Shown here in pieces: positions 15,842 through 63,343 of a stretch of 64,000 bases of DNA. The position numbers were made by a program, and so were the translations under genes. Location: positions 1-64,000 of the forward strand of contig DASXNK010000024.1 in assembly GCA_036495095.1 (NCBI GenBank), given 5' to 3'. The DNA is from Candidatus Dormiibacterota bacterium. GTDB lineage: Bacteria; Chloroflexota; Dormibacteria; Aeolococcales; Aeolococcaceae. Under the pieces are notes generated by a model that saw only the letters and a list, made by a program, of their open reading frames with translations, ran no database searches and was not told where the DNA came from. Within the stretch, counting starts at the first letter, position 1. Every line of letters begins with the position of its first letter.

Positions 15842-15851
15842 CCTCATCCTC

Positions 15852-17334: not shown

Positions 17335-17362
17335 TTTGCTGGGAACGTGCGCTCCGGCGACC

Positions 17363-17869: not shown

Positions 17870-17879
17870 GACGCAACCA

Positions 17880-17885: not shown

Positions 17886-17984
17886 CGCCGGTCGCGGGCG
17901 CACGTCCGGCGACCGGGGTTGTGCACACACCTCTTCACAGCACTTGTTTGGCGGGGCCCCGGATCCGCGCGAGCATCCCCGTCC

Positions 17985-23811: not shown

Positions 23812-23835
23812 GCTCGGTCCCGGCGAGCCGCCTGG

Positions 23836-44820: not shown

Positions 44821-45846
44821 TCACGTCCCGCTGCGTGCGGTGCCGCGGCGCAGCCCGTCAACGATGCGCGCCCACCCGCCGGTACCCCCGCCGGGGAACG
44901 CGTAGAAGCTGACTCGGTCGACGATATCGCCATAGCGCGCCAGCAGGCGCTCCGGGATCTCGTCGGGGGCCCCCTGGACGGCGAAGGCGTCGAGCACCGA
45001 GCCGTCGATCAGCTCCGCCATCTCCGTCCAGCGTCCCTGCTTGGAGAGGCCGTTGAGCTCTGCCTGCAGGTCGCCCCAGCCGTGGACGTCCAGAGCGCCA
45101 CGGTAGGCGGGGGTGGACCCGTAGAAGGAGATCTGGGCGCGCACCGCCGAGCGGAGCGCGTCGACGTCCGCCGGCTCCTCGCCGGTGACCACGAAGCAGG
45201 GCAGGGAGACCTCGAAGTCCTCGCGGCGGCGGCCGGCCCGGGCGAGCCCGCGCTCGACCGCGGGGAGGGTGACCTCGCGGAGGTAGCGCTCGTTGGTGAA
45301 GGCGTGGAGGATGACCCCGTCGGCCACCTCGGCGGCCACCTCGGTCATCGCCTCGCCGACCGCGGCGAGGAAGATGCGGGGGGTGCCGTGAGGGTTGGGC
45401 CCGGGGTTGAAGAACGGCGTCATCAGGGTGTGGGTGTAGAAGTCGCCGCGGAAGTCGAGCTTCGACCCGGTGTCCCACGCCTCCCAGATCGCCCGGATGG
45501 CGCTGATCATCTCGCGCATCCGCGGGGCCGGGTGCGACCAGGTCATGCTGAAGCGCTTCTCGATGTGGGGCCGGATCTGCGACCCCAGGCCGAGGATGAA
45601 GCGGCCCTTCGAGTACGCCTGCAGATCGTGGCCGGTGTGGGCCAGGGTCATCGGGTTGCGGGCGAACCCGACCGCGATCCCGGTGATCAGGTCGACCCGC
45701 CGGGTGTGCTCGGCGGCGACGGCGAGGGGGAGGAACGGGTCGTGCTGGGTCTCGATGCTCATCAGCCCGTCGAAGCCCGCCTCCTCGAGCGCCACCGCGC
45801 GCTCCGCCGCGCCGGTCAGGTCGCCGAGGTGGGTGTCGATCTTCAC
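44821..45846 (-). CDS. F420-dependent luciferase-like oxidoreductase
   Basis: A 341-residue TIM-barrel oxidoreductase of the LLM class (TIGR03617-like): EEAGFDGLMSIETQHDPFLPLAVAAEHT, ITGIAVGFARNPMTLAHTGHDLQAYSKGRFILGLGSQIRPHIEKRFS, FFNPGPNPHGTPRIFLAAVG. Those proteins usually use coenzyme F420, which supports an actinobacterial-like host. The GTG at 45846 follows GGAGGAG. It is in an operon with the secreted hydrolase. Substrate unknown. Confidence 0.85.
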   Translation of the reverse strand: MKIDTHLGDLTGAAERAVALEEAGFDGLMSIETQHDPFLPLAVAAEHTRRVDLITGIAVGFARNPMTLAHTGHDLQAYSKGRFILGLGSQIRPHIEKRFSMTWSHPAPRMREMISAIRAIWEAWDTGSKLDFRGDFYTHTLMTPFFNPGPNPHGTPRIFLAAVGEAMTEVAAEVADGVILHAFTNERYLREVTLPAVERGLARAGRRREDFEVSLPCFVVTGEEPADVDALRSAVRAQISFYGSTPAYRGALDVHGWGDLQAELNGLSKQGRWTEMAELIDGSVLDAFAVQGAPDEIPERLLARYGDIVDRVSFYAFPGGGTGGWARIVDGLRRGTARSGT

Positions 45847-46108
45847 CCTGCTCACTCCTCCGTTCCTCGCTCGGGGAGTCGCGACCGGGATCCCCGGCGG
45901 ACAGGATTGCACGTCGCCCTCCATCGCCGCCCGCGGCTGACCCGGCCCCCCGTTTCCGCCGACTCCGCCACCGAGAAAGGGGGAGCCCGGTTCCCCCGTT
46001 CGTGCGATTGTTCGGCAGCTATCGGGGATGCCAGACTTCCCACCGCTGGCCGGTCCGTCCCGTCGGGAGGGAGGGCGGAGGGCGCCACCACCAGGGGGAG
46101 GTCCGGCG
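45847..46108. other. Upstream region of the mce operon
   Basis: About 260 bases between the luciferase-like gene and the mce operon, presumably holding both divergent promoters. It contains a hairpin-like GGGGGA-N7-TCCCCC (45979-45997). No clear -10 for the mce operon was found; TATCGG near 46020 is the nearest candidate. Confidence 0.4.
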
Positions 46109-46144
46109 ATGGCGGCTGTGACGGAGGCCGGCGGTGGCGTCTGA
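46109..46144 (+). CDS. Leader mini-ORF overlapping the first permease gene
   Basis: An 11-codon frame (MAAVTEAGGGV) with an excellent GGGGGAGG site seven bases before its ATG. It ends 11 bases inside the GTG-started permease gene in a different frame. It may couple or attenuate translation of the mce operon. An alternative is that a frameshift once joined it to the permease. Confidence 0.35.
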   Translation: MAAVTEAGGGV

Positions 46145-46985
46145 GGGCGTCTACGAGGGGCCGCTGAACCCACCGCTGACCGACGAGCTCGGCCAGATCA
46201 TCGTCCGCGGCCTCCGGCCCGGCCGGAAGGGGCTCGAGGCGCTCGGCGAGATGGTGCTGCTCGGGGGCGCGGTCTTCACGTCGCTCCGCACCGGGGTCGT
46301 CTGGGAGGAGTTCATCCACCAGTGCGACATCTTCTTCAAGCGGATGATCATCCCGGTCCTGCTCATCGGCCTGGGGTGGGGGACGATGGTCTCGCTGGAG
46401 GCGGGGAACCTGCTCCAGCTCGCCCAGGCCTCCTGGCGTCTGGGCGGGTTCGAGGCGATGTCCCACATCCGTGAGTTCGACGCCTTCGTCATGGGTGACA
46501 TCGCCATGGGGGTGGCGGGCACCGCGATCGTCGCCGACATGGGCGCCCGCAAGGTGCGCGACGAGCTGGCGGCGATGAGCACCCTGGGCATCGACGTGGT
46601 CCGCGAGATGGTCACCCCGCGGGTGCTCTCGATGATCGTCATGACCAGCGCGATGCTCTTCCCGATGATGGTGAGCAGCCTCTTCACCGGCTGGCTCGCC
46701 GCCGTCTACCTGCGCGGCGCCAGCACCGGCGGCTACTGGCACGACTTCTTCAACCAGACCACCTCGGTGGACGTGCTCATCGGGGTGGTGAAGTGCGCCT
46801 GCTTCGGGATGTTCGGCGGGATCATCGCCTGCTACAAGGGGATGAGCGCCGCCGGCGGCGGCCGGGGCGTCGGCCGCGCCGTGAACGAGGCGGTGGTGAT
46901 GTCGATCATCATGGCGATGAGCGTCAACTACCTGGTCACCTCGATCCTGATGGCGCTCAACAGCTCCGTGAACGTGCTCAAGTGA
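46134..46985 (+). CDS. YrbE/MlaE-family lipid ABC permease, first copy
   Basis: A 283-residue membrane permease with about five or six helices. The region GTAIVADMGARKVRDELAAMSTLGIDVVREMVTPRVLSMIVMTSAML is the MlaE/YrbE signature (the E-x-x-A-x-x-x-L-G-x-D motif that contacts the ATPase). It forms the inner-membrane channel of an Mce importer with the second copy. The GTG at 46134 follows GGAGG. First of two permeases in the operon. Confidence 0.93.
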   Translation: MASEGVYEGPLNPPLTDELGQIIVRGLRPGRKGLEALGEMVLLGGAVFTSLRTGVVWEEFIHQCDIFFKRMIIPVLLIGLGWGTMVSLEAGNLLQLAQASWRLGGFEAMSHIREFDAFVMGDIAMGVAGTAIVADMGARKVRDELAAMSTLGIDVVREMVTPRVLSMIVMTSAMLFPMMVSSLFTGWLAAVYLRGASTGGYWHDFFNQTTSVDVLIGVVKCACFGMFGGIIACYKGMSAAGGGRGVGRAVNEAVVMSIIMAMSVNYLVTSILMALNSSVNVLK

Positions 46986-47000
46986 GCGGCGCCGCACAGC

Positions 47001-47828
47001 ATGGCTGAGGTCGCGGTCGCCCCCGCGAGTGTGGGCCCGCTGAGCGTCGCCGCTCGCAAGACCACCGGCGCGGTGCGCGAGCTGGGCGAGATCTTCCTCT
47101 TCTTCGGCCGGGCGCTCTGGGGCATGCGCACCGTGCCCAAGCACCAGGAGGAGTTCTTCCGGTTCGCCGCCTACGTCGCCCTCTCCACCCTGCCGATCGT
47201 GGTCTGCATCGCCTACTTCATGGGCGCGGAGTGCGGGCTGGAGTCCTGGTACTCGCTGAAGATCATCGGCGTCCAGGACCTCGGCGGCGTCTTCAACGCC
47301 TTCTGCGACCTGCGCGAGTGCATCCCCATCTACTTCGGCTTCGCGGTGGGCGCCAAGGTGGGCTGCGGGCTCGCCGCCGAGCTGGGGACGATGCGCATCT
47401 CCCAGGAGATCGACGCCCTCGAGACCCTCGGGGTGAACACCATCCACTACCTGGTGAGCACCCGCATCCTCGCCTGCCTGATCGTGCTGCCGCTGCTCCA
47501 CGTGGCCGCGCTGACCAGCGGCTTCATCGCCTCCTACGTGGTGCAGATCTTCCAGATCCACCAGCTGTCCCAGGGCATCTACCTGGACTACTTCTGGCGG
47601 TTCATGAACCCGCTCGACTTCGTGTACTCGCTGATCAAGGCGATGAGCTTCGCGCTGTGCACGATCATGACCGGGGTCTTCTACGGCTACAACGTGCGCG
47701 GGGGCTCGGCAGGGGTTGGCCGGGCCGCCGCCAAGACCACCGGCATCAGCATGATCTTCGTGATCATCGCGAACGCGGTCTTCACCCAGCTCTTCTGGGG
47801 CGTGAACCCGCGGGCGCCGATCCCGTGA
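47001..47828 (+). CDS. YrbE/MlaE-family lipid ABC permease, second copy
   Basis: A 275-residue permease paired with the preceding one. It carries AELGTMRISQEIDALETLGVNTIHYLVSTRILACLIVLPLL, the coupling-helix signature with E-I-D-A-L-E-T-L-G-V. About six helices. The two copies are clearly divergent in sequence, as in mycobacterial yrbEA/yrbEB, implying a heterodimer. It has only a weak ribosome-binding site 15 bases after the previous stop. Confidence 0.93.
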   Translation: MAEVAVAPASVGPLSVAARKTTGAVRELGEIFLFFGRALWGMRTVPKHQEEFFRFAAYVALSTLPIVVCIAYFMGAECGLESWYSLKIIGVQDLGGVFNAFCDLRECIPIYFGFAVGAKVGCGLAAELGTMRISQEIDALETLGVNTIHYLVSTRILACLIVLPLLHVAALTSGFIASYVVQIFQIHQLSQGIYLDYFWRFMNPLDFVYSLIKAMSFALCTIMTGVFYGYNVRGGSAGVGRAAAKTTGISMIFVIIANAVFTQLFWGVNPRAPIP

Positions 47829-47853
47829 CCACACCGAGATAGGGAGCCCGCCG

Positions 47854-48603
47854 ATGCAGGTCGTCGCCGACCACCTCCGCAAGCAGTTCGACCAGAACGT
47901 GGTGCTGAGCGACGTCTGCCTGGAGATCCCCGAGGGCGAGGTCACCATCATCATGGGTCCCTCGGGAACCGGGAAGAGCGTCTTCCTCTCCCACATCATC
48001 GGGCTGCTCATGCCCGACGGCGGCAGCCTGATGGTCGACGGTCGTCCCGTGGCCGATCGCAACCAGCGAGAGCTGAACGAGATGCGCAAGCGCATGGGCA
48101 TGCTCTTCCAGGACGGCGCGCTGTTCAGCTCCATCAACGTCTTCGACAACATCGCGCTGCCGCTGCGCAAGCACACCGACCTCAGCGAGACCAAGATCCG
48201 CGAGATCGTGCGCGCCCGGCTCAAGGACGTCGGCCTCTCCGGAACCGAGAGCAGGATGCCCAACCAGCTCAGCGGCGGCATGCGCAAGCGCGCCGGCCTC
48301 GCCCGGGCCCTGGTCATGGACCCGGAGCTGCTGCTCTTCGACGAGCCCGACTCCGGCCTCGACCCGGTGCGCACCCGGCTGCTCTGCGACCTCATCGAGG
48401 ACACCTGGAAGGCCAAGGGCGGCACCTACGTGATCGTCTCCCACGACGTCACCGAGGTGGCCAAGACCGGCCACCGGATCGCCATCCTGTGGCAGGGCGA
48501 GGTGCGCCAGTTCGGCCCCCGCGACGAGGTCTACAAGTCCCAGGACCCCTTCGTCCACCAGTTCATGCACGGGACCGCCGACGGCCCGCTCACGATGGAC
48601 TGA
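47854..48603 (+). CDS. MlaF/MceG-type ABC ATPase
   Basis: A 249-residue ATPase that should energise the lipid importer. Walker A GPSGTGKS is at residues 35-42, with LFQDGALFSSINVFDNIALPLR (MlaF-type Q-loop), signature LSGGMRKRAGLARAL, and Walker B LLLFDEPDSGLDPV with the switch in IVSHDVTEV. In mycobacteria the equivalent MceG is encoded far from the mce operons; here it sits between the permeases and the MCE genes, as in proteobacterial mla. Confidence 0.95.
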   Translation: MQVVADHLRKQFDQNVVLSDVCLEIPEGEVTIIMGPSGTGKSVFLSHIIGLLMPDGGSLMVDGRPVADRNQRELNEMRKRMGMLFQDGALFSSINVFDNIALPLRKHTDLSETKIREIVRARLKDVGLSGTESRMPNQLSGGMRKRAGLARALVMDPELLLFDEPDSGLDPVRTRLLCDLIEDTWKAKGGTYVIVSHDVTEVAKTGHRIAILWQGEVRQFGPRDEVYKSQDPFVHQFMHGTADGPLTMD

Positions 48604-48615
48604 GGAGGGGAGGAG

Positions 48616-49689
48616 ATGCGACCTCGTCAGATCGGCATCGCGCTCGTCGGCGGCGTGCTCGGGCTGTCGCTCGCGCTCACCGGGTTCGTGGTCGCGAAGA
48701 ACGGGCTCACCGGCACCTGGGACTACCACGTCAAGGTGCGGGTCACCGACGCCGACGGGCTGATCCAGGGCAACCGCGTGGCTGTCGCCGGGGTGCCCGC
48801 CGGGCGCATCCTCGACCTCCAGATCGGCGACCACTCGGCGATCCTCACCCTGGGCATCACCGGCGACGTCCGCCCGCTGCGCAGCGACACCACCACCAGC
48901 ATCCGTCCCAAGGGGCTGGCCGGCGAGCGCTTCATCGAGCTGGTGCCGGGACAGCACGGCGCCCCGGTCGCCGACTACGGCATGCTCGCCAGCACCACCG
49001 CCAACCCGGTCGAGGTGGAGGACGTCCTCAACGCCTTCGACGCCCCCACCCGCGCCGGCCTGCAGAGCTTCCTCACCGACCTCGGCGCCGGCATGGCGGG
49101 CAACGGCGCGACCGCCAACCACGATCTCGCCGAGCTGCTCAGCCTCGTCGACCAGGCCCAGGGGCTGGCCACCACCCTGCAGTCGCGGGACGACAGCATC
49201 GGACCGCTGCTCAGCAACCTCGACACGGTGGTGTCGACCCTCGCCACCCTCCAGAGCAGCGGGGTCATCGACCAGTTCACCGGCAACGCCGCGACCGTGA
49301 CCGCCGCGGTGGCCGCCCGCGACGCCCAGCTCCGCGACATGCTGTCGAGGCTGGGCACCGTGCTCGGCGAGCTGAACAGCGCCTTCAGCGGCCACGAGGG
49401 ACAGTTCCGCGACGTGCTCGCCCGCCTCCCCGCGCTGGAGGCGAAGCTGCAGGGCCTGCTCCGGGCCACCGATCCCACGCTCACCACCATCGAGTCCAGC
49501 CTGCCGGACATCCAGCGGGTGCTCATCCAGCTCGCCGACGGGGTGTGGGCCCCCTTCTCCGACGCCAACCGGCTGATGGTGTCGGCGACCGCCGCGATGC
49601 AGGACCTGAGCCTGCCTCCGGGCACTCCGGCGCCGCCGGGCACGGCCACCAGGACGCAGGTGATGCAGTTCCTCACCGGGGGGCGCTGA
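48616..49689 (+). CDS. MCE/MlaD-family substrate-binding protein 1
   Basis: A 357-residue protein. N-terminal membrane helix (about 8-27) and MCE domain (about 35-115; VRVTDADGLIQGNRVAVAGVPAGRILDL). The helical C-terminal region (about 125-330) has repeated VDQAQ/STLATL heptads that build the hydrophobic tube of Mce complexes. It ends in a Pro/Gly stretch. First of six, starting 12 bases after the ATPase; only two bases separate it from the next. Confidence 0.92.
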   Translation: MRPRQIGIALVGGVLGLSLALTGFVVAKNGLTGTWDYHVKVRVTDADGLIQGNRVAVAGVPAGRILDLQIGDHSAILTLGITGDVRPLRSDTTTSIRPKGLAGERFIELVPGQHGAPVADYGMLASTTANPVEVEDVLNAFDAPTRAGLQSFLTDLGAGMAGNGATANHDLAELLSLVDQAQGLATTLQSRDDSIGPLLSNLDTVVSTLATLQSSGVIDQFTGNAATVTAAVAARDAQLRDMLSRLGTVLGELNSAFSGHEGQFRDVLARLPALEAKLQGLLRATDPTLTTIESSLPDIQRVLIQLADGVWAPFSDANRLMVSATAAMQDLSLPPGTPAPPGTATRTQVMQFLTGGR

Positions 49690-49691
49690 CG

Positions 49692-50741
49692 ATGCGACCC
49701 GACCTCAAGCACGTCCTCCAGTTCGGCGGCTTCACCGCCGGGCTCACCGGCCTGGCGATGTTCCTCGCCTCGAACATGAACAGCAGCGGGCTGCCGTGGT
49801 CGCCCCGCTACCTGGTCAAGGCGGAGTTCAGCAACGCCGACCTGCTGCTGAAGGACCAGGACGTGCGCATCAGCGGCGTCCAGGCGGGCAAGGTCACCGA
49901 GGTCGACCCCGCCGACGGCGGCCACGTCGTCGTCACCATGGTGATCGACAAGAGGTACGCGCCGATCCACGCCGACGGGAGCGCCCGGGTGCGCCCGTTC
50001 ACGCTGATCGGCGACAAGTACGTGGACATCGACCCGGGCAGCGCCGCCGCACCCGGGCTGCCCGACGGGGCGACCATCCCGATCGGCCACACCACCGTCC
50101 CGGTCGAGCTCGAGCAGGTGCTCCGCATCCTCGACACCGACACCCGGACGAAGATGAACCAGCTGCTCACCCAGGGCGGCGCGGCGCTCGCGGGCCGGGG
50201 CGAGACCCTCAACCAGCTGCTCCAGCGGCTGCCGCAGCTGGAGCGATCGCTGACCGCCACCCTGCTGGTCACCGACGCCAAGGTGCAGACCATCGACCAC
50301 CTGCTGAGCGGCGCCGACAGCCTGCTCACCAGCCTGGCCCAGCGCCAGGCGCGGATCGAGAGCGCGGTGAACTCCTCCGACCAGCTGCTGGCGGCGCTCG
50401 CCGGCGACCGCGACGTCATCACCCAGACGATCACCACCGCCGACCAGAGCCTGGCGACGCTGGCGCGGGCGATCGCCGGCGAGGGCGCCGACGGCCGCGC
50501 CCTGGTGGCCAACGCCCCGGCGCTGCTCGACGAGATGCGCGGCTTCCTGCACACCGCCGACACCGACACCGTGGGGGTGAGCCCGCAGGCCGCCCAGCTC
50601 CGCGGTCTGCTGGCGCAGCTGCGCAGCTCGTTCAGCGCCCGCGACTCGCTCGGCTACTACGTCCGGGCCTTCGGCCGTGACGACTGCGCGACCACGGTCG
50701 CGGGAGGCCTGCCCCCGTGCAGCTTCCCGCGCGGGCACTGA
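49692..50741 (+). CDS. MCE/MlaD-family protein 2
   Basis: A 349-residue protein. One membrane helix (about 9-28), an MCE domain (FSNADLLLKDQDVRISGVQAGKVTEVDPADGGHVVVTMVIDKRYAPIHADGSARVRPFTLIGDKYVDIDPG) and long helices with Q/L heptads. The C-terminus carries Cys pairs (CATTVAGGLPPCSF) absent from the other five, so it may form a disulfide. Confidence 0.9.
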   Translation: MRPDLKHVLQFGGFTAGLTGLAMFLASNMNSSGLPWSPRYLVKAEFSNADLLLKDQDVRISGVQAGKVTEVDPADGGHVVVTMVIDKRYAPIHADGSARVRPFTLIGDKYVDIDPGSAAAPGLPDGATIPIGHTTVPVELEQVLRILDTDTRTKMNQLLTQGGAALAGRGETLNQLLQRLPQLERSLTATLLVTDAKVQTIDHLLSGADSLLTSLAQRQARIESAVNSSDQLLAALAGDRDVITQTITTADQSLATLARAIAGEGADGRALVANAPALLDEMRGFLHTADTDTVGVSPQAAQLRGLLAQLRSSFSARDSLGYYVRAFGRDDCATTVAGGLPPCSFPRGH

Positions 50742-50752
50742 GGAGGCCGGCG

Positions 50753-51979
50753 ATGGCACCGTCTCAGGAGCCCCGCAACAGCCAGACCTGGTTCGACGAG
50801 CGGATCCACCTCACCCTCGCCGGCAAGACCGCGCTGATCGCGTGCTTCGTCGCCACCTGCTTCGCCGGCATCCTCGGGACCATCCACCTGATCGGCGCCC
50901 CGCTGCCGCTCACCTCCCAGTACCACGTCTCCGCGATCTTCGCCGACGCCGAGGGGGTGATCCCCGACAGCACCGTGACCATCGGCGGTGCCACCGCGGG
51001 CCGGGTCGAGGAGGTGAGCCTGACCCCGCAGGGGGCGAGGGTCACGATGCGGCTGCTCGACCGCTGGCAGAGCACCGTCCACCGCGACGCCACCGCGTCG
51101 ATCCGCATCAAGAGCCTGCTCGGCGAGCACTTCGTGAACATCGATCCCGGGACCCCGGGGCAGCCCCTGCTCGCCTCGGACAGCACCCTCGCCCAGCGCG
51201 GCACCATGAGCGTGGAGCTCAACGACGTGCTCGGGATGCTCGACCAGCCCACCCGGGCGAGCATGGGCGCGCTGCTCGGCTCGCTGGGAACGGCGACGAA
51301 CGGGCGCGGGGGCGACGTCAACACCGCCATCCGCGACCTGCGCACCCTGGTCACCGACATGCAGCCGCTGACCGGCGCCGTCGCCCATCGCTCCGATGAC
51401 GTTCGCCACCTCATCGCATCGGCGGACGCGGTCACCCGCGACCTCGCCGCGCAGCAGGGCGACCTCGGCGGCCTGGTCACCAACGCAAGCGCCGCGTTCG
51501 GCACCCTCGACCGCGACAGGGGCTCGCTCCGTACCCTGATCGACAGCGGCGACACCCTCGCGAAGGAGTTCAGCAGCGTGCTCGACCCCCGCACCCAGGC
51601 GGGACTGCGCGACACCCTGCAGGGCGCCGGCCCGGCGCTCGGCCAGACCGCGGCGCTGGGCTCGACGCTCGCGCCCACGGTGGAGAAGCTGCGGCCCGGG
51701 CTGCCGAGCTACGTGGCCCTGCTCCCCGAGCTGCGCAGCACCTGGAGCGCGGTCGACGGCAACAACCACTACGTTCGCGTGCTCGTGCTCACCGGCTCGG
51801 ATGCGATGAGCCAGCAGCAGAACGGCGATCGCCGTCCGGAGGCGGTGGTGACGCCGCCCGGCGGCCAGCCGGCCGCGCCCGGCTTCCCGCCCCGGCCCTC
51901 GGGGGCGCCGGCCGGCTCCGCCGTGGATCTCCTGCTCAGCGACTCTCCGCTGTGGGCGCTGCTCTTCGGAGGGATGTGA
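50753..51979 (+). CDS. MCE/MlaD-family protein 3
   Basis: A 408-residue protein: a cytoplasmic N-terminus of about 25 residues, a membrane helix (about 29-49, ALIACFVATCFAGILGTIHLI), an MCE domain (IFADAEGVIPDSTVTIGGATAGRVEEV), helical repeats and a Pro/Gly-rich tail. The ATG at 50753 follows AGGAGG. Confidence 0.9.
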   Translation: MAPSQEPRNSQTWFDERIHLTLAGKTALIACFVATCFAGILGTIHLIGAPLPLTSQYHVSAIFADAEGVIPDSTVTIGGATAGRVEEVSLTPQGARVTMRLLDRWQSTVHRDATASIRIKSLLGEHFVNIDPGTPGQPLLASDSTLAQRGTMSVELNDVLGMLDQPTRASMGALLGSLGTATNGRGGDVNTAIRDLRTLVTDMQPLTGAVAHRSDDVRHLIASADAVTRDLAAQQGDLGGLVTNASAAFGTLDRDRGSLRTLIDSGDTLAKEFSSVLDPRTQAGLRDTLQGAGPALGQTAALGSTLAPTVEKLRPGLPSYVALLPELRSTWSAVDGNNHYVRVLVLTGSDAMSQQQNGDRRPEAVVTPPGGQPAAPGFPPRPSGAPAGSAVDLLLSDSPLWALLFGGM

Positions 51980-51981
51980 GG

Positions 51982-53127
51982 GTGCGCACCCTGCTCCGCT
52001 CCTCCTGGGGACAGGTCGTCCTGGTGCTCGGCGGCTTCGCGCTGCTGCTGGTGGCGGTGGGCGCGGTGATCGAGCTGATCTCGGTGCACGACCAGGGCGG
52101 CTACCGGGTCACCGCCACCATCGGCGACGTCAACGGCCTCTTCGACCACCAGACCGTGCGCCTGCACGGGGTCGAGGTGGGACAGGTCGACGACATCAGC
52201 CCCAACCCCAGCCGCGGCGTCGACGTCCGGCTGTCCCTCGACCCCACGTACGCGCCGCTGCACCAGGGGGCGCAGATCAGCGTGCGCTCGCTCGGGCTGT
52301 TCGCGGAGCAGTACGTGCGGATCGTCGACGGGCCCTCGTCGGCCGCACCGCTGCCCGACGGCGCGGGCGTGCCGATGTCGCAGACGGCGTCGGCGATCGG
52401 TCTCGACAGCGTCGTCGACACCCTCGACACCGCCACCCGCGCCGAGATCCGGACGCTCATCACCCAGGCGCAGACCGGGCTCGCCGGCGGCTCCGCGGCC
52501 GACCTCAACGCCGCCCTGCAGCAGCTGCACCTCGCCGTCGAGGCGCTCGACCCGGCGATGGCCAGCCTCTCCCAGCGCACCGCCGCGCTCGACACCATGA
52601 TCTCCGACTACGACCAGCTCGCCACCAAGGCGGCGAGCGACCGCGCCGGCGTCGCCCGTGCGGTCGCCGACCTCAACCAGGGCCTGGCGACCTTCGACAG
52701 CCACGGCGGCCAGGTCGACCGGGCGCTGCAGCAGGCGGCGACCTCGATGACCACGGGCACGGCGATCGTGGGCCAGCGCATCCCCGAGCTGCGCGGCCTG
52801 TTCACCGAGCTGCCGGGCACGCTGCGCACGCTCGACTCGCTGCTCAGCGAGGTCAACCCGTTCCTCGCCAACCTCGAGCCGCTGGCGCCGCAGATCCGGC
52901 AGCTGCTGGTGGGGCTGCAGCGCACCGCGGCGGGCGCCGACCAGAACGGCAACTACATCCGGGTGCTGCCGCAGATGGGCGAGGCGAGCCTCGTCGAGAA
53001 CATCCCCGGCGAGCAGTTCCCCGACCAGCCGTTCCCGCCGGGGACGGTGCCGTCGCCGCCGTCGCGCACCCCGGCGCCGCCGGGGGGCGACCCCAACGCC
53101 CGGCTGTGGGGGGAACTGTTCAAGTGA
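51982..53127 (+). CDS. MCE/MlaD-family protein 4
   Basis: A 381-residue protein. Membrane helix (about 11-31), MCE domain (IGDVNGLFDHQTVRLHGVEVGQVDDI) and helical repeats (VEALDPAMASLSQRTAALDTM...). The tail is Pro-rich. Start chosen as the GTG at 51982, eight bases after GGAGGG and two bases after the previous stop. Confidence 0.9.
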   Translation: MRTLLRSSWGQVVLVLGGFALLLVAVGAVIELISVHDQGGYRVTATIGDVNGLFDHQTVRLHGVEVGQVDDISPNPSRGVDVRLSLDPTYAPLHQGAQISVRSLGLFAEQYVRIVDGPSSAAPLPDGAGVPMSQTASAIGLDSVVDTLDTATRAEIRTLITQAQTGLAGGSAADLNAALQQLHLAVEALDPAMASLSQRTAALDTMISDYDQLATKAASDRAGVARAVADLNQGLATFDSHGGQVDRALQQAATSMTTGTAIVGQRIPELRGLFTELPGTLRTLDSLLSEVNPFLANLEPLAPQIRQLLVGLQRTAAGADQNGNYIRVLPQMGEASLVENIPGEQFPDQPFPPGTVPSPPSRTPAPPGGDPNARLWGELFK

Positions 53128-54326
53128 TCACCGCACCCGCGCCGCGCGGCCCCCGGATCAGGACCCGGCTCTACCCGGTGCTGCTCACCCGCATCCCGCC
53201 GCTCTGGGCCGGCGTGGTCGGCGCCGTCATCATCGTGTTCGTCCTCTACCTCGTCTTCGCGGTGAGCCTGGCCCAGGGCAACCCCTACGCGCACCGCTAC
53301 TCGGTGCACGCGCGCTTCGCCAACACGATCAACCTCGGCACCAACGACTTCGTGGAGATCCACGGGGTGCGGGTCGGCCGGGTGGGCGACCTCACCCCCG
53401 TCGACGGTCTCGCCGACGCGGTGCTGCGCATCGACGACTCCGGGATCCGGCTGCACGACGACGCCACCGCGACGGTGCGGCTGAAGAGCCTGGTGGGGGA
53501 GAGCTACGTCGAGGTGAACCCGGGCACCGCCTCGCGGCCGGAGCTCGCCGACGGGGCGCTGCTGCCGCCGGGGCGGACGGCCACGCCGGTCCAGCTCGAC
53601 CAGGTGCTGAACACCCTCGACCCGGCGACGCGGTCGGCGCTGGCCGGCTTCCTCACCCAGCTCGGGAGCGGGGTGAGAGGACGCGCGGGCGACATCGCCG
53701 GCCTGATCCGGCAGTCGGAGCCGACCCTGGGCTCGACCGGGGCGAGCTTCCACGCGTTCGACTCGCCGCAGCTGGGCGAGCTGCTCGCCACCCTGCGCAC
53801 CGACACCGGGGTGCTCGCGGACCGGTCGGCGGCCCTCGCCGGCATCTTCCGCAGCGGCAACGGCTTCCTCGGTGCGCTCGCGCCCGACACCGCCAACCTG
53901 CAGGCGGTGATCGGCGACGCCGCCGACACATTCGGCCGTCTCGACAGCGTGCTCCACGACCGCACCCAGGGGTTGGGCAGCACCCTCGCCGAGCTCGACG
54001 CGGTGACCCGCAACACCGATGCCCTCGTCGACCAGGCGCGTCCGATCGTCGACGCCCTGACCCCGCAGCTGCCCAGCTTCGCGACCTGGATGAAGGAGCT
54101 CGCCTCGGCCACCTCGCAGCCCGACGCCAACGGCTACTTCCTGCGCCTGCTGCCCCTGTTCGGGCCGGACTCGCCGAGCGGGATCGCCGGCGCCCAGGGG
54201 TCGCAGTCGCGCGCCGCCAGCCGCGGCGCCGCCGCGCCCGCGGCGCCGCCGGCGCCGCTGCCGGGGACGCCCCCGGTGCCGAGCAGCGTGCTCATGGGCA
54301 TGCTCGACCTGGTCTACGGAGGCTGA
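53124..54326 (+). CDS. MCE/MlaD-family protein 5
   Basis: A 400-residue protein with a longer cytoplasmic N-terminus (about 30 residues), a membrane helix (about 30-51, AGVVGAVIIVFVLYLVFAVSL) and an MCE domain (FANTINLGTNDFVEIHGVRVGRVGDL). Helical repeats and an Ala/Pro tail follow. Its GTG overlaps the preceding stop by four bases. In mycobacterial operons this position is usually a lipoprotein (MceE); I see no lipobox here or in the other five. Confidence 0.9.
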   Translation: MITAPAPRGPRIRTRLYPVLLTRIPPLWAGVVGAVIIVFVLYLVFAVSLAQGNPYAHRYSVHARFANTINLGTNDFVEIHGVRVGRVGDLTPVDGLADAVLRIDDSGIRLHDDATATVRLKSLVGESYVEVNPGTASRPELADGALLPPGRTATPVQLDQVLNTLDPATRSALAGFLTQLGSGVRGRAGDIAGLIRQSEPTLGSTGASFHAFDSPQLGELLATLRTDTGVLADRSAALAGIFRSGNGFLGALAPDTANLQAVIGDAADTFGRLDSVLHDRTQGLGSTLAELDAVTRNTDALVDQARPIVDALTPQLPSFATWMKELASATSQPDANGYFLRLLPLFGPDSPSGIAGAQGSQSRAASRGAAAPAAPPAPLPGTPPVPSSVLMGMLDLVYGG

Positions 54327-54328
54327 GC

Positions 54329-55459
54329 ATGCAGACCGGCAGCCGCTCCTACCGCACCGCCGCCACCGTCGCCGGGGCGGTGTTCATCGTGATCGCCGGC
54401 ATCTTCCTGGTGCAGGTGTTCATCGCCGCGCTGGGGATGCGGGTGGTGCCGCCGCTCCAGGCGCCGTACCGGCTGAGCGCGGACTTCCCCGACGCGGTCG
54501 GCGTGAGGGTCGGCCAGCAGGTGCTGGTCAACGGCGCGGTGGTGGGACAGGTCCAGGGCGTCGACGTCCAGGACGGCCATGCCCACGTGCGCATGGAGTT
54601 CGACAGCGGCCGAAGCCCGGTCCACCGGGGGGTGACCGCGACCATCACCCCGACCAGCTCGGTGGGCCACCCGGTGGTGGCGATCACCGACCCGGGGATC
54701 GGCCCGCTGCTGGCCAGCGACGGCAACGTGGGGCTCGCCAGCACCAGCTCGCCGGTCTACGTCGACGACATCGTCTCGGCGATGACCGCCGACCCCCGGG
54801 CCGGGTTCCAGACGATCATGCGCCAGCTCGGCGCCGGGGTCGACGGCCGCGGCCAGGACCTCCGCGCGGTGACCGCGGACACCCGAGCGTTCCTCGGCGG
54901 GCTGATCCCCATCAGCCAGCAGCTGAGCACCGACAGCGGCCGGATGGCCTCCATCCTCGACCACAGCCACGCGGTGATGGGCCAGCTCGCCGGCTCGCAC
55001 CTCGACGCCCTGATCGGCGACGCGGGGCGGTTCGGCAGCGTGGTCAGCGCCCAGTCGGCGCACCTCGGCCCCACCCTCGACTCTGCGATCGCCGACCTCA
55101 CCACCCTGAACCAGACCTTCGCCGGCAACGAGCCGAGCGCGCTGGCCTCGCTGAGCAAGCTGCCCCCGGCGCTCAGCCAGCTGAACCAGACCCTGACCGA
55201 CTTCCGGCCCTTCTTCGAGAGCGGCCTGCTGCCCGCGCAGGCGGACATCGACCAGCTGATCGTCGAGCTCCGGGACGGGTTCGGCCGCAGCACCGCCAAC
55301 GGCCTCGACTACTGGAAGGTGCAGTTCGGGCTCGGCGAGCGCAGCCTGCTCGGCGGGCCCACCGGTGCCGAGGCCCCCGGGGCCGGCTCGCCGCTGGCCG
55401 CGGGCGGCGGTGGTCGGTCGCGCCCGGACACGCTCTTCTCGGTGCTCTTCGGCGGCTAG
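54329..55459 (+). CDS. MCE/MlaD-family protein 6
   Basis: A 376-residue protein: membrane helix (about 13-35, VAGAVFIVIAGIFLVQVFIAAL), MCE domain (FPDAVGVRVGQQVLVNGAVVGQVQGVDVQDGHAHVRMEF), helical repeats (DSAIADLTTLNQTF...), and a Gly-rich end. It closes the set of six, matching the mceA-F number of actinobacterial operons. Confidence 0.9.
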   Translation: MQTGSRSYRTAATVAGAVFIVIAGIFLVQVFIAALGMRVVPPLQAPYRLSADFPDAVGVRVGQQVLVNGAVVGQVQGVDVQDGHAHVRMEFDSGRSPVHRGVTATITPTSSVGHPVVAITDPGIGPLLASDGNVGLASTSSPVYVDDIVSAMTADPRAGFQTIMRQLGAGVDGRGQDLRAVTADTRAFLGGLIPISQQLSTDSGRMASILDHSHAVMGQLAGSHLDALIGDAGRFGSVVSAQSAHLGPTLDSAIADLTTLNQTFAGNEPSALASLSKLPPALSQLNQTLTDFRPFFESGLLPAQADIDQLIVELRDGFGRSTANGLDYWKVQFGLGERSLLGGPTGAEAPGAGSPLAAGGGGRSRPDTLFSVLFGG

Positions 55460-55477
55460 CGGGGCCGACCGGCTGTG

Positions 55478-55483
55478 TACCCT
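55478..55483 (+). promoter_or_regulatory. -10-like TACCCT before the MMPL gene
   Basis: TACCCT nine bases before the ATG at 55493, which has no Shine-Dalgarno sequence. It suggests a leaderless internal promoter, in addition to read-through from the mce genes 33 bases upstream. Confidence 0.4.
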
Positions 55484-55492
55484 GGGCCACCC

Positions 55493-57916
55493 ATGACCCG
55501 GATCCGTGGCCGCGTGGTCGCCGCCCTCCTGTTCAGCGTGCTCCTCGTGGCCGGGGCGATCGCGCTGGCACGGCACCTGGACCTCGACGCCGGGCCGCGC
55601 ACCCTGGCGCCGGCGTCGTCGGACTCGGCCGACGCCACCGCCGAGTACGCGCGGCAGTTCGGCGGCGACCCGGTGGTGATCCTGGTGCGGGGGCCGTGGG
55701 CGACCACCACCAACACCCAGAACATCGTCACCCTCACCGCCCTCGAGGGCGAGCTGCGGAAGCTGCCCGGGGTCAAGCTCATCCAGGGGCCGGGCGGCCT
55801 GGTGTACACGGCGGCGAACGCCGCGCTCGGCCCCGCCCTCCAGCAGCTGCGGATCGACGCCAGGGCGGCGGGCGACGCCGCCCGCGCCGCCGCGGTGAAG
55901 GCCGGGAAGACCGCCGCCGACGCCGACGCCGCCGCCCGCGCCGCCGAGGTGGACACGCTCCACCGGGAGACCGCGGCGCTGCTCGACCGCTACCCGGCGA
56001 TCCGCGAGACCGGGATCCCCAGCCTGGAGAACCCGCGCTTCGTCCACGCGTTCCTCTTCCGCTCCGACGGCGCGGTGAAGCCGCTGTTCCGGCCGCTCCT
56101 CCCCCGCCAGGGGGCGACCCTGGTGGTGGTGCGGCTCGAGGACGGCGCCTCGATGAACACCGTCCGCGCGGTCCGCGAGCGGGTGACCGGGTTCCTCGCC
56201 AGGTACCCGCTGAGCGGCGTCACCACCACCGTCGCGGGCGCCCCGGTGGTGTCCGAGGGGCTGGTCTCGGCGACGGTCACCGACCTGCGCGTCATCCTCC
56301 CGGTCGCCGCGGTGGCGATGCTGGTCATCCTGCTGCTGCTGCTCCCGGGGCTGCTCGGCCTCGTCCCCCTGCCGGTTGCCGCGATCGGCATCGCCTACAC
56401 CTTCGGCGCGCTGGTGCTGCTGCGCCGGCCCACCACCCTGGCGGCGATCGCGGCCATCCCCATCCTGCTGGGCCTGATCACCGACTACGTGGTCCAGGTG
56501 AGCGTCGGCGGTGCCGCCGCCGAGGGGGCGCGCACCCCGGCCGAGCTGCTCCGCCGGCTGCCCGCGCTGCTGCTCGCCGCCGCCGCGACCGTCGCCGGGT
56601 CGCTGATCCTGCTGGTCTCGCCGATCCCGGTGGTGGGCTCGCTCGGCACCGTCATGGCCATCGGCACGGTCTGCGGACTGCTCGCCCTGCTCCTCGCCGG
56701 GGTGCCCGGGCTGCTGCTCCGGCCCCACGCCGCGGCGGGTCAGACCCGGGCGCCGCTGCAGCGGCTCACCTCGCGGCTCGGCGGCTTCGGGCTCCGCCAC
56801 CGCGGCGCGGTCCTGGCCGTCGCCGCCGTCGCCGGGGTCGCCGGGCTGGCGCTGACCCCGCTGCAGCGCACCACCACCGACCTGCGCGACTTCGTCTCCG
56901 CGGGCCTGCCCGCGCTCCACGACCTCGACACCCTGGAGCGCGCCACCGGCGCCGGCGGCGAGGTGGACGTGCTCGTCGACTCCTCCGACAACGTGGCCGC
57001 GCCGGCGGTGGTGAGCTGGATGCTGGCGGCGGAGCGGCGGCTGCAGGCGCTTCTCCCCAAGGACGCTCCCCAGCCGGTCTCGCTCGCCGACCTGCTGGTC
57101 ACCGTCAACCGCGGCGCCCCGCCCGACGCCCAGACCACCAACCAGATCCTGCAGACGGTGCCCGCCTACCTGCTCCAGGGGCTGGTCACCCGCGACGCCA
57201 CCCACGCGGCGATCAGCATCGGCATCCCGCTGGCGCCGCTCCACGAGCAGGAGGCCCTGATCCAGCGGATGCGCGGCGCCCTGCGGCCGCCGCCGGGGGT
57301 GACCGCGCGCCTGGCCGGCGCCGCGGTGCTCGCCGCCGACGGTGAGGCCGGGGTGGCGCGGACCGGCCTGCTCGTCGACCTGCTCGCCCTCGGCGCGGTG
57401 GCGGTGGTGCTGCTGCTCACCACCCTGAGCGCCCGCCGGATGCTGGTCGCGCTGATCCCGATGGTGCTGGCCACCGGATGGACCACCCTGGCGGTGGTGG
57501 CGCTGCGCATCCAGGTCACCCCGATCACCGCGGTGCTCGGCGCCCTGGTCGTCGCTCTCGCGACCGAGTTCTCGGTGATCTGGTCGACGCGGTTCCGCGA
57601 GGCGCGCCGCGACGGGCTCGGCGCCGAGGAGGCGGCGGCGCAGACCTCGGCGCGCACCGGGTCGGCGATCGCCGTCTCCGGGCTCACCCTCTGCGCCGGG
57701 TTCCTCGCCCTCGCCGCGGGCAGCTCGCCGCTGCTGCGCGGCTTCGGGCTGGTGGCCGGGTGCGGCGTGGTCGCCGCGGTGGCGGCGGTGCTGCTGCTCT
57801 GCCCGCCACTGTGCGTTCGGCTGATCCGGGCCGAGCCGGCGGCGCAGGCACACCCGCTCCCCCAGGCCCAGCCCCCGGCGTTCACCCCGGCGCCCGCCGC
57901 CGAGCACGATGGCTGA
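55493..57916 (+). CDS. MMPL/RND-family lipid transporter
   Basis: An 807-residue transporter of the MMPL/HpnN type. N-terminal helix (about 9-28), a first extracytoplasmic domain (about 30-255), a helix cluster (about 260-440, including LRVILPVAAVAMLVILLLLLPGLLG and GLITDYVVQVSVGG with an in-membrane Asp as expected for proton coupling), then a second soluble domain (about 470-620) and second helix set (about 630-775; VALATEFSVIWSTRFREAR). Its position directly after six MCE genes suggests a shared lipid substrate, as for mycobacterial mce/mmpL. It overlaps the next gene by eight bases. Confidence 0.92.
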   Translation: MTRIRGRVVAALLFSVLLVAGAIALARHLDLDAGPRTLAPASSDSADATAEYARQFGGDPVVILVRGPWATTTNTQNIVTLTALEGELRKLPGVKLIQGPGGLVYTAANAALGPALQQLRIDARAAGDAARAAAVKAGKTAADADAAARAAEVDTLHRETAALLDRYPAIRETGIPSLENPRFVHAFLFRSDGAVKPLFRPLLPRQGATLVVVRLEDGASMNTVRAVRERVTGFLARYPLSGVTTTVAGAPVVSEGLVSATVTDLRVILPVAAVAMLVILLLLLPGLLGLVPLPVAAIGIAYTFGALVLLRRPTTLAAIAAIPILLGLITDYVVQVSVGGAAAEGARTPAELLRRLPALLLAAAATVAGSLILLVSPIPVVGSLGTVMAIGTVCGLLALLLAGVPGLLLRPHAAAGQTRAPLQRLTSRLGGFGLRHRGAVLAVAAVAGVAGLALTPLQRTTTDLRDFVSAGLPALHDLDTLERATGAGGEVDVLVDSSDNVAAPAVVSWMLAAERRLQALLPKDAPQPVSLADLLVTVNRGAPPDAQTTNQILQTVPAYLLQGLVTRDATHAAISIGIPLAPLHEQEALIQRMRGALRPPPGVTARLAGAAVLAADGEAGVARTGLLVDLLALGAVAVVLLLTTLSARRMLVALIPMVLATGWTTLAVVALRIQVTPITAVLGALVVALATEFSVIWSTRFREARRDGLGAEEAAAQTSARTGSAIAVSGLTLCAGFLALAAGSSPLLRGFGLVAGCGVVAAVAAVLLLCPPLCVRLIRAEPAAQAHPLPQAQPPAFTPAPAAEHDG

Positions 57917-58481
57917 GGCTCCGGAGCCCGCCGCCGCCGAGCCGCCGGCCGCCGCACAGCTGCGCTGGGACCTGGTGCTCCACGGCACCGCCGCCTACGT
58001 GCCCGCGTGCGTGGTGCTCACCCTGCTCACCTCCGGCGGCCGGCAGATCCCCCGGGTGCTGCTCCACTTCCTCACCCTCCCCGAGCCGATCACCGTGGCG
58101 GTCGGCTACGGGCTCGGCTACCTGGTGGTGCAGTACCGGATCCGCAACCGCCGGCCCAGCTTCCTGCAGTCGCAGGTCTTCGCCGGCTGCGTGTTCGTGG
58201 GCATGTACCTCGGCTTCGCGGCCTGCAGCGTGGCCTTCTCGCGCGGTCCGCTCAGCCACGCCTCGGAGACCGCGGTCGCGGCCGTGCTGGTCCCGGTCAA
58301 GATCCTCGCCGGCGGCCTTGCCGGGGCGGTCATGTACCCGTTCCTGGCGCGAAGGCGGTTGACCAGCCGCTTCTACAGTCCCACCCCGATTCCGCCCAGG
58401 TACGTCGCGCCCGCGGCGGACCCGAAACCGCGCAGCACCCCGGCGCGGAACCGCTCGAAGGCACGCTCGAGGAGGAGGTGA
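57909..58481 (+). CDS. Membrane protein of unknown family
   Basis: A 190-residue protein with about four membrane helices (VPACVVLTLLTSGG; ITVAVGYGLGYLVVQYRI; FAGCVFVGMYLGFAACSVAF; VLVPVKILAGGLAGAVMY) and a basic, Pro/Arg-rich cytoplasmic tail from about residue 148. It overlaps the MMPL gene by eight bases, so it is translationally coupled to it and may be a subunit. I do not recognise the family. Confidence 0.65.
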   Translation: MAEAPEPAAAEPPAAAQLRWDLVLHGTAAYVPACVVLTLLTSGGRQIPRVLLHFLTLPEPITVAVGYGLGYLVVQYRIRNRRPSFLQSQVFAGCVFVGMYLGFAACSVAFSRGPLSHASETAVAAVLVPVKILAGGLAGAVMYPFLARRRLTSRFYSPTPIPPRYVAPAADPKPRSTPARNRSKARSRRR

Positions 58482-58486
58482 CCGGA

Positions 58487-59389
58487 ATGGCCACGCTGAC
58501 CACGGACATCCGCCGCGTCCAGGCCAACGGGATCGACTTCGCCTACCTGGAGGCGGGCCCGGCGGACGGGCCGCTCGCCCTCTGCCTGCACGGCTTCCCC
58601 GACCACGCCCCCACCTGGCGCCACCTCCTCCCGGAGCTCGCGGCGGCGGGGTGGCACGCGGTGGCACCGTGGATGCGCGGCTACCATCCCACCGGCCTCG
58701 CCCCCGACGGCCAGTACCAGCTGGCCACCCTCTGCCTGGATGCGCTGGCGCTGCTCGACGCGCTCGGCGGCGACGAGCGCGCGGTGATCATCGGGCACGA
58801 CTGGGGTTCGCTCGCCGCCTGCGGCGCGGGCATGCTCGAGCCCGCGCGGATGGCCCGCCTGGTCTGCATGGCGGTTCCCCAGAACGCCCTGGCGTTCCAG
58901 AAGGTGATCTCCGACTGGGAGCAGATGAAGCGCTCCTGGTACATGTGGTTCTTCCAGCTGCCCGGCATCTACGAGATGGCGATCAGCGGCGACGACTGCG
59001 CCGCGGTCGAGAACATCTGGCGTGACTGGTCGCCGGGGCTGGCGATCGATCCCGAGGACATGAGCCAGATCCGGGCCACGCTGTCGCGGCCCGAGGTGTT
59101 CCAGGCGGCGATGGGGTACTACCGCAACACCGTCGACGCCACCACCCAGTCCGACGAGCTCAACCTCGCCCAGCTCACCGTCACCTCCGAGACCCTGGGG
59201 ACCCCGGTGCTGTTCGTCGCCGGCGCGGACGACGGCCTCTTCGTCCCCGAGGCCTTCCGCGAGGGGGCGGAGTACTGCACCGCCGAGTGCCGGGTCGAGG
59301 TGCTCGACGGCTGCGGGCACTTCATGCACCAGGAGAGGCCCGCCGAGGTCAACCGGCTGATCCTCGGCTTCATCGGCGGGGCGGGTTAG
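58487..59389 (+). CDS. Epoxide-hydrolase-type alpha/beta hydrolase
   Basis: A 300-residue cytoplasmic hydrolase with HGFPD (oxyanion hole), a nucleophile Asp D105 in GHDWGS, an acid at D248 or D249 (VAGADDGLF) and H278 (GCGHFMHQERP). An Asp nucleophile in GHDWGS is characteristic of epoxide hydrolases and haloalkane dehalogenases; HGFPD favours the former. GGAGGAGG precedes the ATG, five bases after the preceding stop, so it is part of the mce-MMPL transcript. It could open epoxide products of lipid or terpenoid oxidation. Confidence 0.85.
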   Translation: MATLTTDIRRVQANGIDFAYLEAGPADGPLALCLHGFPDHAPTWRHLLPELAAAGWHAVAPWMRGYHPTGLAPDGQYQLATLCLDALALLDALGGDERAVIIGHDWGSLAACGAGMLEPARMARLVCMAVPQNALAFQKVISDWEQMKRSWYMWFFQLPGIYEMAISGDDCAAVENIWRDWSPGLAIDPEDMSQIRATLSRPEVFQAAMGYYRNTVDATTQSDELNLAQLTVTSETLGTPVLFVAGADDGLFVPEAFREGAEYCTAECRVEVLDGCGHFMHQERPAEVNRLILGFIGGAG

Positions 59390-59685
59390 CCCCGGGCCCG
59401 CCTCCGGGCGGTGCGCAGCTCGCCGGCGAGCAGCACCAGCGCGATGAGCGCGATCCCTCCGCCGGCGACCCAGCAGAACACGGTGGCGCCGTGGCCGGTC
59501 AGGCCGCCCATGGTCATGCCCAGGTCGCCGTCCCGGAAGCCGCCCATGGTCATCGCGGCGTGGCTGTCGTGGATCCCGCCCATGCTCATGTCGCCGCCCA
59601 TCGCTCCCGGCGCGATGTACTGCCCCAGCGCAGTCCAGAGCCCCCCGAAGAGGATGAGCAGCAGCGGAACGACACGCCAGCGCAT
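59386..59685 (-). CDS. Met/His-rich two-helix membrane protein
   Basis: A 99-residue protein with two membrane helices (about 5-22 and 69-88). Between them is an extracytoplasmic loop with MGG-, MTMGG- and HDSH-type elements: about eight Met and three His in 40 residues. Such loops bind Cu(I) or Ag(I) in copper-handling proteins. No known family. Its stop overlaps that of the convergent hydrolase by four bases. TACAAT lies seven bases before the ATG. Confidence 0.6.
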   Translation of the reverse strand: MRWRVVPLLLILFGGLWTALGQYIAPGAMGGDMSMGGIHDSHAAMTMGGFRDGDLGMTMGGLTGHGATVFCWVAGGGIALIALVLLAGELRTARRRARG

Positions 59686-59692
59686 GCCGTCG

Positions 59693-59698
59693 ATTGTA
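59693..59698 (-). promoter_or_regulatory. -10 element TACAAT before the Met-rich gene
   Basis: TACAAT (one mismatch to TATAAT) on the minus strand, seven bases before the ATG at 59685. One of the strongest -10 matches in the window. Confidence 0.6.
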
Positions 59699-59793
59699 GT
59701 CGGGCGGGGCGGGCAGAACCGACTCCAAGCTCCACCCCCCACCCCCAACAACGGCGCCGAGATCGCGGGAGGACCGAAACCGGCTGCGCGCGG

Positions 59794-59799
59794 TACTGT
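59794..59799 (+). promoter_or_regulatory. -10-like TACTGT before the kinase
   Basis: TACTGT nine bases before the GTG at 59809. There is no Shine-Dalgarno sequence, so leaderless transcription of the kinase-regulator pair is likely. Confidence 0.45.
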
Positions 59800-59808
59800 C
59801 AGACGGCT

Positions 59809-60972: not shown

Positions 60973-61616
60973 CCGTGCGGATGGCGCCCCCCGGCGGCGT
61001 GATGGTCGTCGACGACCACGCCCTGGTGCGTGCCGGGGTGCGCAGCTTCCTGGAGGCGGACGGCCGCTTCCGGGTGGCGGCAGAGGCGGGGAGCGTCGCC
61101 GAGGTGCGTGCCCGGCTCGAGACCCTCCCCGAGTCGGTCTCCTTCCTGGTGGTCGACATCGAGCTGCGCGACGGCTCGGGGATCGACGTCATCCGCGAGG
61201 CGCGGCTGCGCCAGCCGCCGCTCGAGGTGGTGGTGCTCACCGCCTTCCCCGACGCCCGCACCCTGCACCGCGCCCTCGCCACCGGCGCGCGCGGCTTCGT
61301 GCTGAAGGAGGCGGGGGGCGACGCCCTGGTCACCGCGCTGGCCTGCGCCCGCGACGGCCAGCTGTACCTCGACCCGCGGCTCGGCGGCGCCATCGCCACC
61401 GTGCTCACCATCCCGGACGACATCGCCCGCCAGGCGAGTGACCAGCGGCTGCTGTCGCTGCTCGCCGAGGGCCTCACGGACAAGGACATCGCCCGCATCC
61501 TGGGCAGGACCCCGTCGGGGGTCAGCCGCGACATCGCCGCGCTGCTCCACCGCATGGGTGTGAGCAGCCGCGCGGCGGCGGTGAGCCAGGCGGTGCGCAC
61601 CGGGATCGTCGTGTGA
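60969..61616 (+). CDS. NarL/LuxR-family response regulator
   Basis: A 215-residue regulator. Receiver domain 15-130 with DD early, phosphoacceptor D63 (VVDIELRDGSG) and K in FVLKEAG. The C-terminal LuxR-type helix-turn-helix (about 155-210) reads LLSLLAEGLTDKDIARILGRTPSGVSRDIAALLHRMGVSSRAAAVSQA. It is the obvious partner of the preceding kinase. Its DNA target is unknown; the fatty-acyl-CoA ligase 73 bases downstream or the mce operon could be regulated. Confidence 0.93.
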   Translation: MTVRMAPPGGVMVVDDHALVRAGVRSFLEADGRFRVAAEAGSVAEVRARLETLPESVSFLVVDIELRDGSGIDVIREARLRQPPLEVVVLTAFPDARTLHRALATGARGFVLKEAGGDALVTALACARDGQLYLDPRLGGAIATVLTIPDDIARQASDQRLLSLLAEGLTDKDIARILGRTPSGVSRDIAALLHRMGVSSRAAAVSQAVRTGIVV

Positions 61617-63315: not shown

Positions 63316-63343
63316 TGGCCGGGGGACGTGGAGGTCGCGATCG

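Follow-up and report, generated by a model that had tools for sequence, protein, structure and literature searches.

The window analysed here is a stretch of 64,000 nucleotides from a Candidatus Dormiibacterota bacterium (contig DASXNK010000024.1, positions 1 to 64,000). It contains, at 46134-59389 and entirely on the forward strand, an operon encoding two YrbE permeases, an ATPase, six Mce proteins, an MMPL transporter, a small membrane protein referred to below as U, and an epoxide hydrolase (EH). This operon is a new variant of the importer built from two YrbE and six Mce proteins, transport itself being predicted from sequence. The host is a soil Chloroflexota bacterium, distant from the tuberculosis group. 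Its genome (G000, with the window as contig C24) is a 4.38-Mb metagenome-assembled genome (MAG), 96.6% complete, and its genus is represented by three genomes (G000, G008 and G009). The genes of the operon are as follows.

46134-46985, + strand: YrbEA permease, MlaE family (Pfam MlaE, E = 3e-45; best PDB match YrbE1A, 8fed_I, E = 5e-31)
47001-47828, + strand: YrbEB permease, MlaE family (Pfam MlaE, E = 3e-55)
47854-48603, + strand: MceG/Mkl-type ABC ATPase, between permeases and mce genes (ABC_tran, E = 2.5e-31)
48616-49689, + strand: Mce protein 1, position A (MlaD, E = 2.5e-12; without Cys)
49692-50741, + strand: Mce protein 2, position B (MlaD, E = 6e-17; best PDB match Mce1B, 8fed_B, E = 7e-15)
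50753-51979, + strand: Mce protein 3, position C (MlaD, E = 4e-13)
51982-53127, + strand: Mce protein 4, position D (MlaD, E = 5e-14; Mce4_CUP1, E = 8e-8)
53124-54326, + strand: Mce protein 5, position E, plain membrane anchor (MlaD, E = 9e-13; Cys-free N-terminus)
54329-55459, + strand: Mce protein 6, position F (MlaD, E = 6e-12)
55475-57916, + strand: MMPL/RND transporter, HAE3-like, starting at 55475 or 55493 (MMPL, E = 1.8e-29)
57909-58481, + strand: U, 190-residue membrane protein of no known family (profile searches, structure models, homologues)
58487-59389, + strand: EphA-like alpha/beta epoxide hydrolase (Abhydrolase, E = 1.5e-21; PDB match EphA)

The starts of mceB (49692), mceC (50753), mceD (51982), mceE (53124) and EH (58487) are given as likely. 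A first-pass annotation of this DNA had described a complete importer operon (two permeases, ATPase, six Mce proteins and MMPL) with these limits and this gene content, and the Pfam domains bear it out (MlaE twice, ABC_tran, MlaD six times, MMPL and Abhydrolase). Its account of the spacing was also accurate, as the genes overlap (mceD/mceE and MMPL/U) or lie no more than 33 bp apart: the gaps measure 2-25 bp, and one would reach 33 bp with the ATG at 55493 as the MMPL start. Neither a sigma-70-like promoter nor an intrinsic terminator was matched in 45800-60200, where such scans are weakly informative at 74% GC. The motifs of the ATPase, read from the translation, are intact (Walker A GPSGTGKS, signature LSGGMRKR, Walker B LLLFDEP, H-loop SHD), and the protein scored 223 bits against the MlaF model, under the cut-off. 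The MMPL protein likewise remained under the cut-off of TIGR00921 (227 bits). Each of the six Mce proteins carries a single MCE domain, recognized by Pfam MlaD with E values from 6e-17 to 6e-12. Traces of Mce4_CUP1 were found in four of them, and only one reached the curated cut-off, barely.

Among 400 sampled Chloroflexota genomes, MCE proteins were found in 20, all from the class of the window and mostly with six per operon. In the class operons that could be read, yrbEB and mceA flank the ATPase gene, and most have mmpL after mceF; the surroundings of operons C37, G009:C112 and G006:C122 yielded no MMPL homologue. Members of this class that carry mce genes have yrbEA-yrbEB-ATPase-six mce-mmpL as their standard order. 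No Omp85 protein was detected in the host genome, although the same search was positive in 7 of 14 control genomes; the lineage is therefore very probably monoderm. A survey of MlaDE systems reported them in monoderm Actinobacteria, with function unknown there, and does not mention Chloroflexi (PMC10665443).

The kinship of the transporter core was assayed by phylogeny. In a tree of 43 permeases, the Chloroflexota YrbEA proteins grouped with actinobacterial YrbEA (100/100) and the YrbEB proteins with YrbEB (100/98), indicating that the permease heterodimer is common to both groups. The window ATPase grouped with four mce-linked actinobacterial ATPases, in a tree whose sole outgroup was one Azospirillum protein. 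A mce-linked ATPase, encoded upstream of yrbEA, has already been described in non-mycobacterial Actinomycetales (PMC1810536), and the ATPase gene has the same place in the Streptomyces and Nocardia mce operons that we examined. The initial reading had likened the ATPase to that of proteobacterial mla and the locus to a hybrid organisation, and had suggested phylogeny of the permeases and ATPase as a check. Both trees side with the actinobacterial proteins and do not support a mla/mce hybrid, which was rejected on this ground; moreover, the succession of permeases, ATPase and Mce proteins is ordinary for the class.

Like the Mce1 importer (YrbE1AB-MceG-Mce1A-F, PDB 8fed) and actinobacterial mce operons, the window operon combines a YrbEA+YrbEB pair with an ATPase of the same group, and as in those operons, six single-MCE-domain proteins are encoded together. 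It differs from them by the position of the ATPase gene between yrbEB and mceA, by the presence of MMPL, whereas Mas/RDD genes lie downstream in Actinomycetes, and by the lack of a lipoprotein Mce. With Mla (MlaFEDB) it shares the MlaE-fold permease, the linked ATPase and the MlaD domain. Mla, however, is built on only one permease and one MlaD protein, against two permeases and six Mce proteins here, and belongs to a diderm cell, whereas Omp85 is undetectable in the window genome.

A proper lipobox is present in none of the six window Mce proteins. MceA, MceD, MceE and MceF contain no Cys at all, and the LIAC of MceC sits early in its membrane helix. In contrast, the fifth Mce protein bears a lipobox Cys in the seven actinobacterial operons examined. 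The first-pass annotation was thus right to report that the lipoprotein MceE is missing, but this absence is class-wide and not peculiar to the window: no convincing lipobox was seen in class-type Chloroflexota operons (in G080, an AGC is embedded in an extended hydrophobic segment).

In the tree of full-length Mce sequences, the 48 Chloroflexota proteins came together as one clade (100/100). Pairing with the same position in Actinomycetes was rejected in all six cases by the approximately unbiased (AU) test (p = 0.0041 for A, 0.013 for B, 0.0046 for C, 0.0008 for D, 0.0042 for E and 0.0006 for F), with Actinomycetes as the only comparison group and with helical regions that are possibly misleading. 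A tree of the MCE domain only neither supported nor rejected a single Chloroflexota clade. The best PDB matches were also non-positional (MceA to Mce1B, MceC to Mce1F, MceE to Mce1B). Thus, no one-to-one orthology links the window Mce proteins to the sampled actinobacterial A-F proteins, and the resemblance to mceA-F noticed earlier holds for the number of genes in the operon but not position for position. Because all six pairings were rejected, the six-fold expansion of Mce in Chloroflexota may be independent of the actinobacterial one. If the six-Mce set arose twice, the formation of hetero-hexamers on a common YrbEA/YrbEB pair would be a striking convergence.

The host genome holds three six-Mce operons, located on the window contig, on C196 and on C37. 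The C37 operon is the class-typical one. In both permease and Mce trees, a long stem of their own unites the window and C196 copies as sisters; U accompanies each of them, and their MMPL proteins are closely related. On C196, the MMPL gene is upstream and divergent, not co-directional with the mce genes. The U homologue (U') starts 1 bp after the mceF stop, and the alpha subunit gene of a soluble di-iron monooxygenase (SDIMO) follows 9 bp after U'. This SDIMO is complete (15352-19475), with alpha, then reductase, beta and coupling subunits, and its alpha subunit displays two E-x-x-H di-iron motifs (DEVRH and DEARH). The best plasmid match of the alpha subunit, 53% identical, is encoded on pYYL1.1 of Rhodococcus ruber YYL; there the SDIMO genes have the same order, but no mce operon is present in the 25-kb region shown. 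An SDIMO alpha subunit was found in 3 of 108 class genomes: G000, G008 and, outside the genus, G084. The window-type operon was not found outside the genus of the window among the class genomes searched. In the openly readable literature, which leaves most subscription journals outside, no paper tying mce operons to SDIMO or to Chloroflexi was found.

The window hydrolase is epoxide-hydrolase-like and nearest to EphA, as judged from its sequence. Its best PDB match is EphA (5cw2, E = 2e-39), and the alignments display the HGFP (oxyanion HGxP), GHDWG (Asp nucleophile), GCGH (His) and cap-Tyr motifs. EH follows U in G000 and G008. A paralogue, 79% identical, and another SDIMO alpha gene of the host genome are separated by about 4.5 kb (C206, 4540-11491), an interval that contains a sensor kinase and a LuxR-type regulator. 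The genes on either side of the window operon are listed below.

44821-46017, - strand: divergent F420-dependent LLM oxidoreductase (TIGR03617, 497 bits, cut-off 278)
59850-60972 (start approximate), + strand: GAF-type sensor histidine kinase (open reading frame read by eye)
61059-61616, + strand: LuxR-type response regulator (Response_reg and GerE)
61690-63315, + strand: acyl-CoA synthetase (NF004837, 664 bits, cut-off 476)
63275-64000, + strand: NDMA-dependent alcohol dehydrogenase, extending beyond the window end (TIGR03989, 581 bits, cut-off 440)

The LLM oxidoreductase neighbour is kept in G008 and G009. An alcohol dehydrogenase of the same NDMA-dependent type also adjoins an SDIMO alpha gene in G008 (contig C50).

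The congener G009 offers a ready comparison, as it has lost the operon but kept U. Its contig C92 (JAQBPI010000242.1) joins window position 46164 to 57890: yrbEA through MMPL are gone, while the start of yrbEA and the U gene remain. A second junction on the same contig connects 58613 with 61677, so that most of EH is missing and what is left of it is truncated. These leftover gene scars indicate a deletion and not a site that predates insertion of the operon. The U protein of G009 is intact and 84% identical to that of the window, with a dN/dS of about 0.24 versus 0.28 for the neighbouring LLM gene (NG86, rough at this GC). As U stayed intact after loss of the operon, either it may be independent of the operon or the deletion is recent.

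The conservation of U and EH with mce genes had been proposed as a test of their membership. U accompanies two mce operon types (window and C196) in two genomes (G000 and G008), but within one genus, and it survives in G009 without the operon. The hydrolase follows U in the same two genomes, but it is absent from C196 and truncated in G009, and its paralogue is near an SDIMO. This patchy co-occurrence, together with the position of the paralogue, leads us to conclude that U and EH are parts of a catabolic locus at the level of the genus, not of mce operons generally.

U is a protein of 190 residues with probably four transmembrane helices and a basic disordered tail. No family match was obtained in Pfam, NCBIfam, PDB sequences or plasmids. 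Searching 32 family genomes, 85 class genomes and the 400-genome phylum sample revealed no U outside the three genomes of the genus; in the phylum sample, four other genomes yielded nothing but weak partial matches, lying inside long frames. U shares with LucB, an accessory subunit of Mce1 (8fed_K) named for comparison beforehand, its small size, a probable four-helix membrane architecture and a disordered tail. U was modelled twice with AlphaFold, from 6-7 sequences, and both models had low confidence (pLDDT 61 and 68). When these were used in Foldseek, LucB ranked 3 with one and 1 with the other among 350,542 PDB chains, with E values of about 1 and TM scores of 0.21-0.28. Sequence homology between LucB and U was detected neither by hmmsearch nor by hhalign or shuffle tests, although the PDB search run for this sequence comparison picked up LucB when a Rhodococcus B-4DMT protein served as query; U was therefore rejected as a LucB homologue despite the suggestive Foldseek rank. 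With E values of about 1, TM scores below 0.3 and no sequence support, the modelled resemblance is a lead only.

On plasmid pRB98 of Rhodococcus oxybenzonivorans, the gene at 23828-24442 (locus L108) encodes a B-4DMT protein that is a LucB homologue (E = 3e-17 to 8fed_K), and it sits a few genes downstream of a mce operon. The LucB gene of M. smegmatis (MSMEG_3032) is away from mce1. Distant stand-alone relatives of U, sharing a SQ(I/V)FA motif, are encoded in G000 (C141, 2295-2768; C196, 21312-21836) and G008 (C28, 6470-6943), not beside mce genes. They suggest that U belongs to a broader family that also has roles beyond Mce.

A core of YrbE and ATPase, of the ABC type, topped by a hetero-hexameric Mce tube is established for the family (PMC9882608, PMC10517005). 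On this model we infer the assembly of the complex, the direction of import, the class of substrate, the role of U and the order of reactions. YrbEA and YrbEB would form the membrane channel of one ATP-driven importer, powered by two copies of the ATPase. The six Mce proteins, each anchored by one N-terminal helix, would assemble into a hetero-hexameric ring and helical tube, through which a hydrophobic molecule would cross the thick cell wall of the monoderm bacterium. MMPL would work alongside on the same class of molecule, and U would probably be an accessory membrane subunit or a regulator. The divergent branch formed by the window and C196 copies would be coupled, in this genus, to the oxidation of hydrocarbons or terpenoids: the SDIMO would oxidize the cargo, alkene-type cargo would yield epoxides opened by EH, and the products would be handed to the alcohol dehydrogenase and the acyl-CoA synthetase.

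This explanation, taken as a whole, has in our judgement slightly less than an even chance. It draws on the full component set with intact ATPase motifs, the permease heterodimer common with Actinomycetes, the C196 fusion, the EH paralogue near an SDIMO, the restriction of U to the genus and of SDIMO to the genus plus one genome, the deletion in G009, where no SDIMO was found, and the alcohol dehydrogenase and acyl-CoA synthetase downstream of the operon. The genes downstream also favour a dedicated substrate, as the first-pass annotation suggested. Because the sister operon reads straight into SDIMO genes, the window and C196 copies would probably feed the cell hydrocarbons rather than cholesterol. 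Several points weigh on the other side. The genomes are draft MAGs, and the mce-U-SDIMO fusion is known from one of them only. The fused operon on C196 has no EH, and most class mce operons, including that on C37, have no SDIMO nearby. Many SDIMO substrates, propane among them, are gases, for which no importer is needed. U, as kept in G009, may serve something other than a window-type mce operon. Finally, the failure to find an SDIMO in G009 is weak evidence, since this MAG is 68% complete. A bolder version, which joins an independent six-fold expansion, recruitment of the branch for SDIMO hydrocarbon uptake and U as a new accessory subunit, seems doubtful.

Mycobacterial Mce1 has been proposed as a fatty-acid or membrane-lipid importer, and the window operon might be a general importer of this kind, with oxidation genes adjacent by chance or for use of fatty acids. 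The best PDB relatives belong to the Mce1 fatty-acid importer of M. smegmatis, an acyl-CoA synthetase is nearby, and class-typical operons lack matched catabolic genes. However, the window and C196 copies form a long-stemmed branch restricted to an SDIMO-bearing genus, and one copy runs into the SDIMO with gaps of 1 and 9 bp, which makes a general importer rather unlikely, if still the strongest competitor. Mce4-type systems take up cholesterol, and a terpenoid or sterol-like cargo, with EH and the F420-dependent oxidoreductase in the pathway and the SDIMO loosely related, would fit these two genes flanking the operon and the Mce4_CUP1 traces in four Mce proteins. The curated cut-off was just reached in one protein only, and genes for sterol-ring degradation were not seen next to the operon (a genome-wide search was not made); we regard such a cargo as distinctly improbable. 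Least probable of all, and very unlikely, is a system for envelope building or efflux, with MMPL exporting a lipid and the Mce complex recycling or inserting it. Outward transport of lipids or hydrophobes is known from MMPL and HAE3 relatives, and in most class operons mmpL comes after mceF, but on C196 the gene is upstream and divergent, near C37 no homologue was found, and lipid-biosynthesis genes were not recognized in the operon.

The proposed coupling of the importer to hydrocarbon oxidation bears on the open question of why monoderm bacteria keep Mce importers, for which the sister operon reading into a hydrocarbon monooxygenase provides a concrete substrate hypothesis. The surprises here are that such an operon occurs in this phylum, in a cell that probably has a single membrane, that its sister is fused to an SDIMO, and that the six-Mce set may have originated twice.

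Two further kinds of mce locus were encountered in the genomes searched. Contig C329 of G008 carries a divergent mce cluster with a true lipobox; its actinobacteria-like score and this lipobox suggest that it may result from transfer or MAG contamination. Open frames with several MCE domains each, unlike the six-Mce operons, occur in two other genomes of the class, G070 (C53, 2002-3051) and G069 (C82, 554-1063), and are possibly PqiB-like or contamination.

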